From assembly GCA_009917445.1 (NCBI GenBank), contig QZEE01000004.1, forward strand, positions 1-64,000: 64,000 nt of DNA, in the 5' to 3' direction. The notes below the pieces were generated by a model. It was given only the letters and a program-made list of their open reading frames with translations, was not told the DNA's origin and did no database searches. Of the stretch, positions 34,086-40,105 are shown piece by piece. The stretch is from a bacterium D16-76. GTDB taxonomy: Bacteria; Bacillota; Clostridia; Oscillospirales; Acutalibacteraceae. Made by a program: the position numbers and the translations under genes. Position 1 is the stretch's first letter; each line of letters starts with the position of its first letter.

Positions 34086-34718
34086 CTATGGATTCCCGTG
34101 GCCCGCCCGCTTTTTCTTCCTTTCCGGCTGTTCCGGCAGCAAATACCCGCTAAGCCCCACCGTTAAAAACTGGAAAACCGTCTCTTCGGTTTCCTCGTTG
34201 TCCGGCAGATACCCTTCCACTACGTACTTGGCGTACATCACTGTGGTGGTGAGCACATGCAGCCATAGCATGTCGTACTTAATCTTATCCAGCTTGGGGA
34301 ACAGCCGCAAAAACAGCCGTACTATATCCGCAAAGGCGGAAAAATAATTCAAATCCCGCTGCTCGTAAAACTCCGGGAAAGCGGCGCTGTCCCGGAACCG
34401 ATGGTAGAAAACCGTCTCGTCCGGCCTGGCCAGCCAAAAGCGGAAGTAAGGCTGCCACAAGGTCTTCACCGCGCCCATGGGGTCTCTCAGCATGGTCAAG
34501 GGGTTCAGCCGTATGCCGTCAAAAATAGCGGCGGCCTGCTTGTCCACCAGGATGAAGCACTCTTCCATCAGCTGGTCTTTGCTGTCAAAGTACCGGTACA
34601 GCGCCCCAGGGGACAGGCCTGCCAGCTCGCTTATGTTCTGGATCCGCGCGCCCTCCAGGCCATACAGGCGCACAGCCCTTATAGCAGCCATAAGGATCCG
34701 GGTTTTTGTGTCATCCAA
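34086..34718 (-). CDS. TetR/AcrR family transcriptional regulator
   Basis: The 210-residue protein has an N-terminal TetR helix-turn-helix (RILMAAIRAVRLYGLEGARIQNISELAGLSPGALYRYFDSKDQLMEE, residues 5-51 approximately, given here as separate helices around GLEGARIQNIS and GALYRYFDSK) and a ligand-binding helical C-terminal half. The start is set at TTG 34718 because GGAGGG lies 7 bases before it; the upstream ATG at 34754 has no RBS. It has its own promoter and terminator. No transporter gene adjoins it directly, so the target could be distant or the gene may regulate itself. Confidence 0.85.
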   Translation of the reverse strand: MDDTKTRILMAAIRAVRLYGLEGARIQNISELAGLSPGALYRYFDSKDQLMEECFILVDKQAAAIFDGIRLNPLTMLRDPMGAVKTLWQPYFRFWLARPDETVFYHRFRDSAAFPEFYEQRDLNYFSAFADIVRLFLRLFPKLDKIKYDMLWLHVLTTTVMYAKYVVEGYLPDNEETEETVFQFLTVGLSGYLLPEQPERKKKRAGHGNP

Positions 34719-34766
34719 TAGCAGCCCTCCTTTGAAAAAATAAGGGTTTCCCAATTATTCCGATTC

Positions 34767-34906: not shown

Positions 34907-35641
34907 TTAAGAGCACCCCTGCCCGCCGTGGTGTGCCCCATGGCCTTTTCCGTGGCCCTGCCCGGGGGTGGGGGCGGGCTCGCCCGAAAGGGCCGCGATC
35001 TTCTCCCGTATCTCCCGCATGGTAAGCCCCTGCACGTCTTCCGGGGTGGCGTCCGGGTCCAGGGCCTGCAGCTCTAAAAACGCCCGGTACTTCCCGCAGG
35101 AGAGCCCGGCTTCCCGGGCGGCAGAGCCCTCGGCCCAGCCCCCCGACTGGCAGTGGACGTTGCGCCCCCCGCCCGCGCAGGACTCCACGTTGGCCAGGAT
35201 TTCCTGGCTGCGCTGCTCGTCGTCGCAGGCCACGAAGATAGACAGGGCCTCCCCGCGCTCCAAGCAGTCCTGCACGGCGGCGCTGGCCAGCAAAGCGGTT
35301 AGGGCCTGGGAGTAATCGGCAAAGAGCACCGGGGTGCTGCGGGCCAGCTCCCGGCCGCCGTCGTTGTAGCCCTCAATGCCAATGACCCGGTCAAAGCGGT
35401 TGACCGTAAGCATGACCGAAGGGTTGATGTCCAGGCTGATAGCCGACACCGGGGTAAAGAACAGCCCCCCGCCCAGCCCCAAAACCAGCAGCAGGCACGC
35501 CGCGGCGCAGGCCAGGGCCCGCATACGGCGGCGGCGCGCCCTCTGCCGCCCGGCCCGCCGGGCAACGGCGTCCAGGGTTTTCGACTTCAGGTCCTCTTCC
35601 GCCCGCAGGGCCGAAAAAGCGTTGTGCAGCCTGTCATGCAT
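34907..35641 (-). CDS. Membrane anti-sigma factor with RsgI-like extracellular domain and Gly/His tail
   Basis: The 244-residue protein has a basic cytoplasmic N-terminus of about 40 residues, one membrane helix (about 42-63), and an outer domain starting SAISLDINPSVMLTVNRFDRVIGIEGYN-type sequence near 68, the hallmark of the RsgI-like anti-sigma middle domain. It ends in a Gly/His run ([15 protein letters not shown]). It overlaps the ECF sigma gene by 8 bases, so it should hold that sigma factor at the membrane until an outer signal releases it. No zinc-binding ZAS motif is present at the N-terminus. The tail closely resembles that of the secreted protein encoded first in the operon, suggesting a shared metal ligand. 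Confidence 0.82.
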   Translation of the reverse strand: MHDRLHNAFSALRAEEDLKSKTLDAVARRAGRQRARRRRMRALACAAACLLLVLGLGGGLFFTPVSAISLDINPSVMLTVNRFDRVIGIEGYNDGGRELARSTPVLFADYSQALTALLASAAVQDCLERGEALSIFVACDDEQRSQEILANVESCAGGGRNVHCQSGGWAEGSAAREAGLSCGKYRAFLELQALDPDATPEDVQGLTMREIREKIAALSGEPAPTPGQGHGKGHGAHHGGQGCS

Positions 35642-36116
35642 CTCCGTCACCTCCCAGGCTTTCCCGCAGCAGTTTTTTTGCCCGGGCCAGCAGCGAATAC
35701 ACCGTGTTTGCATTTTTATGTAGGATGCGCCCGATATCCGGGGCCGTGTACCCCTCATAGTAATGCAGGTACACTGGGTCCCGGTATTTTTCGGGCAGGG
35801 CCAGCACCGCATCCAGCACCTCCCGGGTGTCCGGGGGGGCCTGGGCGGGCAGGTCGATCAGGTCATCCAAAGGCACCGTGCGGGACCGGAAGAAGCTGCG
35901 CAGCAGGTCCCGGCAGGCGTTGATGGTCACGCGGATAAACCATGCCTTCTCATGTTCCTCATTTTCAAACACAGCAGAGCTGAGGGCGTACTTCAAAAAC
36001 ACATTTTGAAAGACGTCCTCGGAATCAGCCTGGTTTTTCAGGTGGATCAGGCAGAGCCTGCGCACCGTGTCGGCGTGCAGCTCTATGGCCCGGGCTGTTT
36101 CCTGCTCGCTGCGCAT
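35634..36116 (-). CDS. ECF-type RNA polymerase sigma factor
   Basis: The 160-residue sigma factor has region 2 (ELHADTVRRLCLIHLKNQADSEDVFQNVFLKYA, about residues 12-45, shown by the ADSEDVFQNVFLK helix) and region 4 (LPEKYRDPVYLHYYEGYTAPDIG and NTVYSLLARAKKLL, 108-150), with no region 3, the ECF pattern. It is the middle gene of a three-gene unit, starting 11 bases after the His-rich secreted protein and overlapping its anti-sigma factor by 8 bases. It is therefore expected to direct transcription of its own operon in response to an envelope signal. The regulon beyond that is unknown. Confidence 0.92.
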   Translation of the reverse strand: MRSEQETARAIELHADTVRRLCLIHLKNQADSEDVFQNVFLKYALSSAVFENEEHEKAWFIRVTINACRDLLRSFFRSRTVPLDDLIDLPAQAPPDTREVLDAVLALPEKYRDPVYLHYYEGYTAPDIGRILHKNANTVYSLLARAKKLLRESLGGDGDA

Positions 36117-36127
36117 AGGGGTCAGGT

Positions 36128-36445
36128 TTAGCAGTGCCCGCCGTGGTGGCCGCCGCCGTGGTGGCCGCCGTTGCCCCAGCCATTGCCCTGGCCGCCGTTA
36201 CCCCAGCAGCCGCCATTGTTCCAGCCCTGGCCGTTGCCGGGGCACAGGGAGGGGTCGTAGTTGTCGCATACGCCGTCGCCGTTGGTATCTACCCAGCCGC
36301 CAAAGCCGTGGCATGTGCGGCCCATAGAGATACCGCTGGTAATACGGTCTATGGCCCAAGCGTGATGGCCACCGGCCAAAGCGCTGGTAGACGCCACGCT
36401 GATCACCAATGCGGCGGAAACGATACCTGCTAATACTTTCTTCAT
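36128..36445 (-). CDS. Small secreted Gly/His/Asn-rich protein with EF-hand-like motif
   Basis: The 105-residue protein has a signal peptide (1-24, ending SALA), a DTNGDGVCD calcium-loop-like motif (about 53-61) and a low-complexity tail of Gly, Asn, Trp and His ending GGHHGGGHHGGHC. His clusters and three Cys suggest binding of divalent metals. Its TAGGAGG RBS is strong. It is the first gene of the ECF sigma/anti-sigma unit, so it is either the sensor ligand or the main output. I know similar short secreted proteins with D-x-D-G-D-G-V-C-D repeats in Clostridia but no function for them. Confidence 0.7.
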   Translation of the reverse strand: MKKVLAGIVSAALVISVASTSALAGGHHAWAIDRITSGISMGRTCHGFGGWVDTNGDGVCDNYDPSLCPGNGQGWNNGGCWGNGGQGNGWGNGGHHGGGHHGGHC

Positions 36446-36562
36446 GACAAATTCCTCCTAAATATTTTTCCCACCGTTTTACCGGTTCTGCCATAAATAC
36501 GTTTGGAGAAGGCAAATCCGTGCACGGTTTTCCAAATTTTTTTAAAAAATTTCAAAAAAGCC

Positions 36563-38332
36563 TCAATCCTCAATCTGGGCGGTGTACAGGTGGTAGTATT
36601 TGCCCTGCTTTTCCAAAAGCTCTTCATGGGTGCCCATCTCGGCAATGCCCTTGTCGGCAATGTAAAGGATGCGGTCGCAGTTCTTGATAGTAGAAAGCCG
36701 GTGGGCAATGATAAAGGAGGTGCGGCCCTGCAGCAGCGCCTGCAGGCCCTGCTGCACCAGCTTTTCGGTTTTGGCGTCGATGGAAGAGGTGGCCTCGTCC
36801 AGCACTAAGATCTTAGGGTCTGAAAGCAGGGTGCGGGCAAAGGCCACCAGCTGCCTCTGGCCCTGGCTCAGCCGTGAGCCCCGCTCGTTTACCTGGGTGT
36901 CGTAGCCGTCCTCCATCTGGCTGATAAACTCGTGGGCGCAGACCGTCTTGGCAGCGGCAATGACCTCTTCGTCCGTGGCGTCCAGCCGGCCATAGCGGAT
37001 GTTGTCCATAATAGTGCCGGAGAAAATAAAGCTGTCCTGCAGCATAATGCCCATCTGGCTGCGCAGGGAGTGCAGGGTCACCCCGGCAATGTCCGTGCCG
37101 TCCAAAAGCACCTGGCCCCCGTTTATATTATAGAAACGGGACAAAAGGTTTACCACCGTGGTCTTGCCCGCGCCGGTGGGCCCCACCAGGGCAACGGATT
37201 CCCCAGGGCTTACCTGGAGGTTAAAATGCTCCAGCACGTTTACCGTGCCGTCGTAAGAGAAGGTCACGTCCTGGAACTCCACCCGCCCTTTTATAGGCGG
37301 CAGCTCCGTGGCGCCGGGGGCGTCGTCTACGGTGACGGGTTCGTCCATCATCTCAAAAATGCGTTCCAGGTAGGCCACGGCATTGATAAAGGTGTTGTAA
37401 AGGTTTGAAAGGTTCAGCATGGGCTGCCAGAACCGCCAGGCGTAAGAGGACAGGGCGATAATGGTGCCGATCTGCATGGCGGGCCCCAAAAAGGCCAGGC
37501 CCACCAAGTACATGGCCCCCACCACCCAGGTAGAGATGTTGTCCACCGACACCCAGATCAGCTGGGAGGTGTACTGGGCCCGCATCCAGGACCGGCGGTA
37601 GTTGGTGTTCAGCCGGTCGTAAATGCCGGCGTTTTCCTCTTCGCGGGTAAAGGCCTGGGTGATCTTCATACCGTCCAGGCTCTCATGCAGGTAGGCGTTC
37701 AGGTTGGAGCTTTTGTTGGAAACATCCTGCCAGGCCCGGCGCTGGGCGGGCTTTACCAGGAAGATCACAATAAGCAGCAGGGGCACGCCCGCCATCACCA
37801 CCAGGGACAGCCGCACATCGCAGATAAGCATGAAAATGGCAATGAGCACCAGGTTGAAGATTTCCAGCACAAAGTTGATAATGCCGTTGGACAGCGCGTC
37901 AGACACGCTGTTGATGTAGTTGATGACCCGGGTCAGAATTTTCCCGTGGGGCCGGTCGTCGTAAAACTGGAAGGGCAGCTTTTGCAGGTGGGCAAACAGG
38001 TCCTTGCGGATGTCGTAAATGATCTCCTGGCCCACGGCAATCATATACTGGCTGCGGGCCTTGGCAAACAGCACCGAGACGATAATGGCCGCCAGCATGC
38101 CCAAAGAGAGCAGCGCCAGCTCCCCATAATCCCGGTTGGGCACCGAGACGTTGATGCCCCGCTGCACCAACAGGGGCCCCAAAAGGGCCGCCGCGGCGGA
38201 AAGGGCCGAGTACAGCAGGGACAGCACCATTTTCTTTTTGTGCCGGCCAATGTAGGTGCCGGCCCGCAGCAGGTGCTTTATACTAAACGGGGTCTCCAGG
38301 TTTTCGTCCACGTCAAAGCGGTTGCGCGCCAT
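36563..38332 (-). CDS. ABC multidrug exporter subunit (catalytic-site half), BmrD/YheH-like
   Basis: The 589-residue protein has six membrane helices in residues 30-330 fused to an ATPase domain. Walker A GPTGAGKTT (about 383), Walker B LVLDEATSSID with the catalytic Glu, and IIAHRLST with the switch His are canonical, but the signature is LSQGQ instead of LSGGQ. It begins immediately after the stop of the partner half-transporter. Pairing with the partner's degenerate site gives one active and one inactive ATP site, the heterodimeric exporter type of BmrCD and LmrCD. The exported substrate is probably a lipophilic drug or metabolite. Confidence 0.9.
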   Translation of the reverse strand: MARNRFDVDENLETPFSIKHLLRAGTYIGRHKKKMVLSLLYSALSAAAALLGPLLVQRGINVSVPNRDYGELALLSLGMLAAIIVSVLFAKARSQYMIAVGQEIIYDIRKDLFAHLQKLPFQFYDDRPHGKILTRVINYINSVSDALSNGIINFVLEIFNLVLIAIFMLICDVRLSLVVMAGVPLLLIVIFLVKPAQRRAWQDVSNKSSNLNAYLHESLDGMKITQAFTREEENAGIYDRLNTNYRRSWMRAQYTSQLIWVSVDNISTWVVGAMYLVGLAFLGPAMQIGTIIALSSYAWRFWQPMLNLSNLYNTFINAVAYLERIFEMMDEPVTVDDAPGATELPPIKGRVEFQDVTFSYDGTVNVLEHFNLQVSPGESVALVGPTGAGKTTVVNLLSRFYNINGGQVLLDGTDIAGVTLHSLRSQMGIMLQDSFIFSGTIMDNIRYGRLDATDEEVIAAAKTVCAHEFISQMEDGYDTQVNERGSRLSQGQRQLVAFARTLLSDPKILVLDEATSSIDAKTEKLVQQGLQALLQGRTSFIIAHRLSTIKNCDRILYIADKGIAEMGTHEELLEKQGKYYHLYTAQIED

Positions 38333-40105
38333 TTAAACCACCTCCCTTTCGCTGCTGTCCCCGCCGTTTTGCAGCAGGAAGACTTCCCGGTAATAGCCGG
38401 GCTTTTGGGAGAGCTCTTCGTGGGTGCCCACGGCCGTGACCCGGCCGTTTTCCAGCACCACCACCTTGTCGGCCCGCTTGGTGGTAGAGATGCGCTGGGC
38501 CACAATGATCTTGGTGCAGGGGAAGGGCAGGGACGCCAGCTGCCCCTGGATGTACTTTTCGGTTTCCAGGTCTACGGCGCTGGTGGTGTCGTCCAGTATA
38601 AGCACCGAGGGCTTTACCGCCAGGGCCCGGGCCAGGGCAATGCGCTGCTTCTGCCCGCCGGAAAGGCCGGTGCCCCGCTCGCCTATAACGGTGTCAAAGC
38701 CTTGGGGCAGCTTTTCGGCAAAGCCGGCCACGTCGGCCATAAGGGCAAAGCGCTTGGCCTCTTCTTCGGACATCGAGCTGTCCCCGTAGGCAATGTTGCC
38801 GTCTACGGTGTCGGAGAAGAGGAACACGTCCTGTGTAGCCATGCCGATGGAGGACCGCAGGGACTTTACATCATACCGGCGTATGGGCACGCCGTCCAAA
38901 AGCACCTGGCCGCCGGTGGCGTCGGCAAAGCGGGGGATGAGCCCCACCAGGGAGGTCTTGCCCGCGCCGGTGGGGCCCATAATGGCCACCGTCTCCCCGG
39001 GCTCTACCTTCAGGTCGATGTGGGAGAGCACCTGGGCGCCGTGGAGCTTAAGGCTTACGTCCTGGAACTCCACCTGCCCCTGCACGCGGCCCTGGGGCTT
39101 TACGGCGTCGGGACGGGAGACAATGGTGGACTTGGAGTAGTACAGCTCAATGATCTTGCCGGCGCTGGCAAAGAACCGCTGCAAGTCGTTTAAGTGCATG
39201 CCCAGGCTGCGCATGGGCTCGCTGAGGGTCCAGGTAAGGCCGTTGAACATGGTAAAGGTGCCAATGGAGATGCGCCCGTTAATCAGGAAGATGCCCCCCA
39301 CCAGCAGCACCGCAATGGAAAGGGACTGGGACAGGGTCTCCACATAAGGGCTGAATTTCAGCCACAAAAGGGAGGCGGTCTTGTTGGCCTCCTTATAGGC
39401 CTGGTTCTTTTCATCGAACCGGGCGGTCTCGTAGCCCTCCCGGGCAAAGGCCCGCACCACCCGGTTGCCGGAGATGTTTTCCTGGGCGGCGGTGTTCAGC
39501 TGGGAGAGCTTCTCCCGCAGCTCTACATACAAGGGGTGCACCCGGCGGGAGAACAGGAAGGTAAGCAGGAAAATGAAGGGGGTGACCGCCAGCATGGACA
39601 GGGCCAGCAGCCAGTCCGCGGCCAGGAAGGTGACGGCCGTGGTGGTAAACAGCACAATGCAGTGGATCAGCTGCCGCACCGTAAAGCACACCGCGTGTCG
39701 GATCATGTCCATGTCGCCGGTCAGGCGGGTCATCAGGTCGCCGGTGCGGTAGGCGCTGTAAAAGGCCTGGTCCTGCTCCTGCATGTTCTGGTACAGGTCC
39801 CGGCGCAGCTCGTAGATGAGCTTTTGGGAGATGCTCTCATAGCTCATGTTGGTAAAGTAGCCGAACCCGGTGCGCACAAGGGTAAAGCCGATGAGCACCG
39901 CCACCAGCATCCCCAAGCGCTGCATGGATCCCGGGGCGGTTTCACCGGACTGCTGCAGGGGCTTGAAGACGGTGTCCATAATGTTGGCGGAGATCAGGGA
40001 ATTTCCCAGGGCCATAACGGCCAGCAGGGCGGCGGAGAACAGGGCGAAAACATAGCGCTTCCGGCTGCCGGCCAGCCGCGCCCACACCCATCTCAACTGG
40101 AACAT
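38333..40105 (-). CDS. ABC multidrug exporter subunit (degenerate-site half), BmrC/YheI-like
   Basis: The 590-residue half-transporter has six membrane helices and an ATPase domain with Walker A GPTGAGKTS and the consensus signature LSGGQKQR, but Walker B is followed by Asp (LILDDTTSAVD, normally Glu) and the switch His is Gln (VAQRIST). These are the marks of the non-catalytic nucleotide site in heterodimeric exporters. AGGAGG-like sequence precedes ATG 40105. It is the upstream gene of the pair, with a stop directly abutting the next ATG, so the two subunits are made in equal amounts. Confidence 0.9.
   Translation of the reverse strand: MFQLRWVWARLAGSRKRYVFALFSAALLAVMALGNSLISANIMDTVFKPLQQSGETAPGSMQRLGMLVAVLIGFTLVRTGFGYFTNMSYESISQKLIYELRRDLYQNMQEQDQAFYSAYRTGDLMTRLTGDMDMIRHAVCFTVRQLIHCIVLFTTTAVTFLAADWLLALSMLAVTPFIFLLTFLFSRRVHPLYVELREKLSQLNTAAQENISGNRVVRAFAREGYETARFDEKNQAYKEANKTASLLWLKFSPYVETLSQSLSIAVLLVGGIFLINGRISIGTFTMFNGLTWTLSEPMRSLGMHLNDLQRFFASAGKIIELYYSKSTIVSRPDAVKPQGRVQGQVEFQDVSLKLHGAQVLSHIDLKVEPGETVAIMGPTGAGKTSLVGLIPRFADATGGQVLLDGVPIRRYDVKSLRSSIGMATQDVFLFSDTVDGNIAYGDSSMSEEEAKRFALMADVAGFAEKLPQGFDTVIGERGTGLSGGQKQRIALARALAVKPSVLILDDTTSAVDLETEKYIQGQLASLPFPCTKIIVAQRISTTKRADKVVVLENGRVTAVGTHEELSQKPGYYREVFLLQNGGDSSEREVV

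Follow-up and report, generated by a model that had tools for sequence, protein, structure and literature searches.

What does an extracytoplasmic function (ECF) sigma factor respond to when its gene has that of a small secreted repeat protein on one side and that of an RsgI-like anti-sigma factor on the other? The question is raised by a three-gene operon of bacterium D16-76 (Acutalibacteraceae, Clostridia), located at positions 34,907 to 36,562 of a 64,000-nucleotide stretch of contig QZEE01000004.1 (positions 1 to 64,000 of the forward strand) that is referred to here, as a whole, as the window. A preliminary description of the locus had proposed that a divalent metal bound by His-rich tails on the secreted protein and the anti-sigma factor sets the activity of the sigma factor. 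We favor a different reading, to which we give a probability of roughly 0.6, namely that the operon is a stand-alone, self-amplifying envelope-signaling cassette with a SEAL-type anti-sigma factor, and that its two tails share a partner at the wall or cell surface. The evidence that carries this reading consists of a constant gene order, a conserved promoter, a SEAL fold with an Asn-Pro site, a site-2 protease gene in the same genome and the statistics of the tails.

The operon and its sigma factor

The operon consists of three genes on the minus strand, in the order secreted repeat protein, ECF sigma factor and RsgI-like anti-sigma factor. They are as tightly spaced as had been described (36445-36128, 36116-35634 and 35641-34907), with 11 nucleotides (nt) between the secreted-protein gene and the sigma gene, and with the start of the anti-sigma gene overlapping the sigma stop codon.

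36496..36524, minus strand: ECF-type promoter, with -35 element TGCACGG (36524-36518), a 16-bp spacer and -10 element CGTATT (36501-36496), recognized by its conservation upstream of operons
36454..36459, minus strand: Shine-Dalgarno sequence AGGAGG of the secreted-protein gene, read from the sequence
36128..36445, minus strand: secreted repeat protein, 105 amino acids, an open reading frame (ORF) whose small secreted counterpart immediately precedes the ECF gene in 18/18 operon-bearing genomes of the genus
35634..36116, minus strand: canonical ECF sigma factor with sigma2 and sigma4 domains, 160 amino acids, from Pfam and NCBIfam
34907..35641, minus strand: RsgI-like anti-sigma factor, 244 amino acids when counted from the start overlapping the sigma stop, from Pfam RsgI_M

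The identity of the second gene is confirmed by matches to Pfam PF04542 (Sigma70_r2, 2e-8) and PF08281 (Sigma70_r4_2, 4.8e-15) and to NCBIfam TIGR02937 (62.2 bits, cut-off 42.9). Its product has the sigma2 and sigma4 domains only, and its own operon is preceded by a TGAA-like -35 element, a 16-bp spacer and a CGT-type -10 element, all as in ECF systems, where the spacer is 16-17 bp. Possession of sigma4 sets it apart from SigI, the sigma factor partnered by RsgI. At a related locus (L003:1027-2226), sigma and anti-sigma factors stand in one 399-residue frame, which is either a fusion or an assembly error.

A conserved promoter

The element YGMANGG-N16-CGTATT, or a near form of it, was found in 32 of 32 operon upstream regions: best-match scoring over 200 nt located it in 31, and in L009, where it is more than 200 nt away, it was recognized by eye. 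All real regions except L004 score at least 13, a value reached by 1.0% of shuffled regions; a score of 11.5 is reached in 12.6% of shuffled trials and by six of 32 200-nt windows taken inside genes, where the maximum is 12.5. A sequence-only promoter model, R1, was trained on those 32 regions, so that the training genomes match by construction; it scores about 145-150 first-look candidates per genome in most genomes and can miss weak sites. In the window's own genome R1 gives one strong site, at the operon (E = 6e-11), with the next at 0.16. In the genus, 17 of the 18 operon genomes have a site at E ≤ 1e-7, all 17 belonging to the training set, and in the other (G019) the contig ends inside the operon; the remaining 11 genus genomes have no site below 0.01. 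Among 33 family genomes, R1 places a site at the gene cluster in 17 of the 19 that have an anti-sigma match (E from 1.9e-14 to 5.9e-4), three of which (G260, G134 and G053) are outside the training set. The two without such a site are G245 and G236, the contig of the latter beginning within the operon; the best site in the 14 family genomes lacking an anti-sigma match has an E of 4.5e-4 (G032). By pattern, the element is present in eight of nine further operons outside training (6/7 at class level, 2/2 at phylum level).

The promoter of the operon appears to be used by the operon's own sigma factor. An autoregulated-looking promoter had been proposed upstream of the first gene; its -10 element (CGTATT) is conserved, whereas GGAAAACC, the proposed -35 element, is not and was rejected in favor of TGCACGG.

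Extra copies of the promoter bear on the size of the regulon. A pattern scan of the window's own genome found four exact sites, against two for a reversed control pattern. A larger regulon in this genome was rejected, since the three other exact sites lie in or against coding sequence as judged from the surrounding ORFs. In two genus genomes, a copy precedes the gene for the same FMN_bind membrane protein, with E = 1.5e-6 in G026 (L107, G026:C27:17500-22100) and E = 0.003 in G018 (L106, G018:C9:14300-19500). These are the only two genus genomes in which the protein is matched over its whole length; it has no match at 1e-8 in the window's own genome. The G026 protein, and it only, also gave a Ferric_reduct match below that family's cut-off. 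A second weak copy in G018 (E = 0.004; L105, G018:C11:77100-80200) precedes a lipoprotein gene whose product matches SH3_3 below its cut-off (E = 0.0076). The two G018 sites do not surpass the best one in the control genome G032, and the only support for the first of them is its place before a gene common to G026. These copies hint at an extracytoplasmic redox or electron-transfer link in some species. Five weaker sites in family genomes were examined and set aside, four being inside other genes (L139, L141, L142 and L143) and one before another ECF gene (L140), and two more (L092 and L075) showed nothing of interest. No metal-transport or metal-resistance gene was seen behind the extra promoter-like sites examined, which cover part of the weak ones.

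The other ECF gene, L140 (G053:C3:179977 region), has a CAATCGTATTGTAACTGAAGG element just upstream, and downstream of it is a gene for an anti-sigma-like protein with an outer serpin domain (Pfam Serpin, 3.1e-50).

A SEAL-type anti-sigma factor

The third gene had been described as a one-helix anti-sigma factor with an RsgI-like outer domain and a Gly/His tail containing Cys, and each of these parts could be located.

35456..35521, minus strand: single membrane helix, about residues 41-62, by eye and as a helix of the predicted model
35078..35446, minus strand: SEAL/RsgI_M outer domain, residues 66-188, from Pfam RsgI_M and Foldseek
35420..35425, minus strand: predicted autocleavage site Asn73-Pro74, from alignment to solved RsgI chains and from conservation of Asn-Pro
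34910..34969, minus strand: disordered Gly/His tail, residues 225-244, with a predicted local distance difference test (pLDDT) value below 50

The protein matches Pfam RsgI_M with E = 1.6e-17 (64.8 bits, cut-off 25.3). At E ≤ 1 the only other Pfam match is an insignificant one to DUF4179 (0.028), and the cytoplasmic RsgI_N domain gave no match in the window's protein. In the predicted model the outer domain has a pLDDT of about 90 and the last 20 residues fall below 50. With this model as the query, RsgI outer domains make up all ten of the best Foldseek matches (E 5.7e-7 to 1.1e-3; template modeling score by target 0.57-0.73), and the nearest are those of Bacillus subtilis and Clostridium thermocellum RsgI. 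Pfam and Foldseek agree on the SEAL fold.

In a search with a profile built from 16 homologues of the anti-sigma factor, the B chains of solved RsgI outer domains from C. thermocellum are matched. The Pro of the profile's Asn-Pro pair aligns with residue 1 of chains 8hep_B, 8her_B, 8u9o_B, 8heq_B and 8hdj_B, as expected if these chains result from a cut between Asn and Pro. In the predicted model, Asn73-Pro74 is placed between strands 1 and 2 (residues 64-71 and 75-81), and the pair is kept in 15 of the 16 aligned homologues and in all 11 further family members. Since the site is in register with the starts of the solved chains, autocleavage of the anti-sigma factor followed by intramembrane proteolysis is likely. 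The halves of a cut RsgI stay bound until they are pulled apart, and B. subtilis RsgI has been proposed to watch the state of the wall. The window's own genome has a gene for an RseP-type site-2 protease (Peptidase_M50, E = 6.3e-61). RsgI signaling, in an excerpt of its published account, runs from autocleavage through RseP to ClpXP (PMC12203970).

At two other loci, L021 and L024 (G014:C36 and G017:C37), which belong to another kind of sigma system, the encoded proteins carry DTDYGPNNDGVTDY repeats in tandem; RsgI_M was found in the L021 protein.

Distribution of the cassette

Operons were counted by recognizing their genes by eye in ORF listings. In the genus, 20 of 29 genomes have a match to the anti-sigma factor, 18 of them strong (E ≤ 1e-30), and in all 18 the ECF gene is present with a small secreted gene directly upstream, that of L007 being cut by the contig end. 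The weak match in G014 is another RsgI_M protein; G004 has the other weak match. A search with the secreted protein as a single sequence gave matches in 9/29 genus genomes, each only at the operon. The operon also occurs in further genera of the family and in Clostridia of other families. Of 250 family genomes, 56 match the anti-sigma factor at 1e-10. In a sample of 20 family regions (the 19 strongest new ones plus G268), a secreted gene could be read in 14; L050 starts inside this gene, L062 and L063 lack it, and L064-L066 hold different RsgI-like genes. The operon is also carried by L069 (Ruminococcaceae bacterium UBA1417). At class level 47 of 291 genomes match at 1e-20, and ten loci examined include seven sigma/anti-sigma pairs of the cassette type, six of them with a visible secreted gene. 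At phylum level, leaving aside the window's own genome, matches at 1e-40 were found in only two of 398 genomes, each of which has the operon. At one further locus the sigma gene and the front part of the anti-sigma gene were not seen, as if deleted.

Flanking reading frames, in most cases covering about 1.5-3 kb, were compared between 32 loci. Apart from a second cluster of three that proved to be its antisense frame, a Na+/Ca2+ exchanger gene (PF01699, E = 6.6e-31, tested in L011) was alone in being common to at least three loci; four related genomes (L011, L014, L015 and L016) have it immediately upstream of the promoter. A few other genes were shared by pairs of loci. Since no neighbor recurs generally, the cassette seems to stand alone.

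The secreted repeat protein and the two tails

The first gene encodes, as described beforehand, a secreted protein of 105 residues with a calcium-loop motif and a Gly/His tail ending in Cys; its N-terminus was judged by eye to resemble a signal peptide.

36260..36289, minus strand: calcium-loop-like DTNGDGVCDN, a single copy, from the sequence
36131..36175, minus strand: Gly/His tail ending in Cys, from the sequence, variable among relatives

The window's protein, which is probably disordered, belongs to no Pfam or NCBIfam family, and no known domain exceeded its cut-off in the secreted proteins of relatives. DUF6802 matched under its cut-off in the L008 protein only (E = 1.6e-4), and Excalibur (PF05901) appeared at E = 0.66 in one of seven relatives, with none listed for the other six or for the window's protein. 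By pattern, one to five loops of the DxDGDGxCD type occur in 22 of 31 secreted proteins counted, while nine (L019, L054, L056-L061 and L069) are loop-free. Other motifs are NCPNxGxPAQDGTGxQYG-like repeats in L054, L056, L060 and L069, CPTCGLQHC knuckles in L019 and HxHDG-type motifs in L061 and L153; L146 has DGDG loops and a DGSG end together. The body of the protein is acidic in 30 of the 31 (that of L057 is basic) and all 31 have at least three Cys. Given the acidic DxDGDGxCDN loops and the Cys residues, binding of Ca2+ or another metal by the body of the secreted protein is plausible.

The two tails of the window share a Gly/His/Cys composition, and an identical 14-nt stretch is common to the ends of their coding sequences (36131-36175 and 34910-34969), a length matched by 0.4% of 500 codon-shuffled tail pairs. 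Across operons, the His contents of the last 25 residues of the two proteins are correlated (Spearman 0.71, n = 30, with L022, L051 and L055 dropped). After phylogenetic contrasts, r is 0.40 for His (permutation p = 0.017) and 0.32 for Gly (p = 0.043), and correlations for Asn, Arg, Cys and Gln are not significant. In a set of 38 operons, which omits L022, L147, L050, L161 and L162, at least three His are found among the last 20 residues of both proteins in 14, of neither in 18, of the secreted protein only in three and of the anti-sigma factor only in three; a Fisher test gives p = 4.5e-5 when descent is ignored. Over their last 20 residues, 33/38 secreted proteins carry a net positive charge (zero in four, negative in one), as do 29/38 anti-sigma factors (zero in five, negative in four). 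The resemblance of the two tails is probably real, the common property being a Gly-rich and basic character of which the His-rich form is a local version.

The preliminary description had considered two such tails in one operon unlikely to be chance, and had suggested a search for the three-gene arrangement and for co-occurrence of the tails. A non-random similarity has gained some support and the arrangement is common (18/29 genus genomes), but His-rich tails on both proteins are not a general feature (14/38). In terms of sequence, the His-tail match is a clade trait, largely by descent, and not a feature of the system. L017, for instance, retains the promoter, and the last 25 residues of its secreted protein and of its anti-sigma factor are free of His. 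The same description had named homologous operons lacking the tail on one or both proteins as what would refute its metal model, and such operons were found. Since these equivalent operons lack the tails, metal sensing by His-rich tails was rejected as the general mechanism, and a wall- or surface-bound partner of both tails is favored over a His-bridged metal.

Proposed mechanism

In the resting state, the single-helix anti-sigma factor would hold the ECF sigma factor at the membrane. By analogy with solved RsgI, its outer SEAL domain would have cut itself at Asn73-Pro74, the two halves staying joined by a common beta-sheet. A pull on the exposed, disordered, mostly basic and Gly-rich tail, or a ligand bound to it, could then separate the halves, upon which the anti-sigma factor would be degraded by a site-2 protease and a Clp protease. 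Once released, the sigma factor would transcribe the cassette from its own promoter, TGMAWGG-N16-CGTATT, and the main product, the Cys-bearing repeat protein with its acidic loops, would be made and secreted in a burst. Since the tail of the secreted protein is like that of the sensor, the two probably bind to one another or to a common partner in the wall or at the surface, by which the secreted product may feed back on the sensor.

Several observations weigh against this proposal. Four relatives of the anti-sigma factor (L018, L067, L069 and L152) lack the Asn-Pro pair, so autocleavage is not universal. The L146 operon has no promoter element, and the G018 and G026 sites point to a regulon that in some genomes may extend beyond the operon. 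The divergent genomes G053 and G260 have promoter, sigma and anti-sigma genes and no secreted gene, and G059 (L055, G059:C65) has kept the promoter and the secreted and anti-sigma genes with no sigma gene between them; the three parts are therefore separable. The L149 secreted protein has no Gly-rich tail, and the similarity of the tails is partly due to shared ancestry. Finally, the window's anti-sigma tail, at only about 20-25 residues, is too short to span a Gram-positive wall.

Alternative explanations

One alternative, possible if somewhat unlikely, is autocrine feedback, in which the secreted protein would be the ligand of the outer part of the anti-sigma factor and would trigger or damp its release. 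The near-constant linkage of the two genes, the confinement of secreted-protein matches to the operon in the nine genus genomes with any, and the likeness of the tails are all in keeping with it, but G053 and G260, with no secreted gene at the operon, are not.

Wall surveillance without any feedback, where the disordered tail would sense the wall and the secreted protein would be a wall-binding repair or coating product, deserves a similarly tentative place. It fits the kinship of the SEAL fold with B. subtilis and C. thermocellum RsgI, the modeled disorder and mostly basic charge of the tails, which would suit anionic wall polymers, and the G018 promoter copy before a lipoprotein with a sub-cut-off SH3_3 match; the shortness of the window's tail and the fact that no known wall-repair gene was seen under the promoter argue against it.

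That the resemblance of the tails is functionless, arising as low-complexity, Gly-rich ends drift in composition or undergo gene conversion, we consider unlikely. The 14-nt identity between the window's tails and the modest correlations left by contrasts agree with it, and the recurrence of net basic ends on both proteins across families speaks against it.

Two further possibilities are improbable. In the first, the cassette would be a self-monitoring switch for a surface coat: the secreted protein would coat the wall, the anti-sigma tail, of the same make-up as the tail of the secreted protein, would insert into the coat or compete with it, and the amount of coat would thereby be measured and more be made by way of the self-cutting SEAL anti-sigma factor; jointly with this, and no more probably, the tails would co-diversify (Gly/His, Gly/Asn, Gly/Gln and Arg-ending forms) because they are obliged to match. 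In the second, the secreted protein would be a Ca2+ buffer or a Ca2+-dependent matrix protein and the system would report extracellular Ca2+. The acidic loops of 22/31 partners and the exchanger gene of four related genomes agree with a role in calcium handling; however, nine of the 31 partners are loop-free, the four exchanger genomes form one clade on the sigma tree and carry the exchanger upstream of the promoter, and the Excalibur match is insignificant.

The least probable of the readings is the one proposed at the outset, that the secreted protein is linked to the tail of the anti-sigma factor by Ni, Zn, Cu or Co and sigma activity is set in this way, since the His/Gly/Cys-rich tails of the window, the correlated His contents and the 14 doubly His-rich operons are set against 18 of 38 operons with no such tail and six with one, all with the same gene order and, where checked, the same promoter, and against extra promoter copies that precede FMN_bind membrane-protein and lipoprotein genes and not known metal genes.

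Relation to known systems

The closest known system is SigI/RsgI of B. subtilis and C. thermocellum, which resembles the cassette in its single-pass anti-sigma factor, its SEAL/RsgI_M outer domain with the Asn-Pro site in register, its sigma/anti-sigma gene pair, an RseP-type protease gene and CGTA in the -10 element. An excerpt of PMC10575876 gives the SigI -10 element as CGWA and describes SigI as lacking sigma4. In contrast, the window's sigma factor is a canonical ECF protein with sigma4, and the cassette has no RsgI_N match, no carbohydrate-binding or enzyme domain as a sensor, and a secreted repeat protein as its first gene.

ECF systems of the RsiV/RsiP type share with the cassette an ECF sigma factor with a one-helix anti-sigma factor, overlapping genes and a TGAA..-N16-CGTA promoter. 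Regulated intramembrane proteolysis is expected as a further common feature (excerpts of PMC9044953 and PMC8844934). Their anti-sigma factors have a DUF3298-type sensor as the outer part; in the cassette its place is taken by a SEAL domain and a tail rich in Gly. The acidic DxDGDG loop of the secreted protein is also found in Excalibur, thrombospondin type 3 and dockerin domains; unlike these, the secreted protein has no Pfam match over cut-off, the window's loop carries Cys-Asp-Asn, and other secreted members use DGTG, HxHDG or CPTCG motifs.

No description of the three-gene unit was found among literature titles and the openings of abstracts, in part the best 8-12 of many, with few subscription papers covered. 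The SEAL anti-sigma factor is known as a force- or ligand-released switch for SigI; here the same kind of outer domain serves a canonical ECF sigma factor, with a gene for a secreted repeat protein added, and the whole forms a portable cassette of gut Clostridia. Its constant promoter allows candidate regulon members to be sought in genomes, and natural variants without His, Asn-Pro, secreted gene or sigma gene are ready-made controls for what the tails sense.

Leader and flanking genes

A further feature lies near the presumed 5′ end of the transcript.

36473..36486, minus strand: small inverted repeat ACCG GTAAAA CGGT, from the leader hairpin score

RNAalifold returned no consensus fold for the leaders. 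Summed over 32 loci, the leader hairpin score is 309.5, against 247.2 ± 11.0 (maximum 279.5) in 200 mononucleotide shuffles; for the window's leader alone, p = 0.09. In relatives, too, a small inverted repeat is found just past the presumed transcript start, and it changes between loci.

The cassette of the window is flanked by two ATP-binding cassette (ABC) transporter genes upstream (36563-40105) and a TetR-family gene downstream (34086-34754). One other locus among the flanks compared had an ABC transporter match, on the other side of its cassette.

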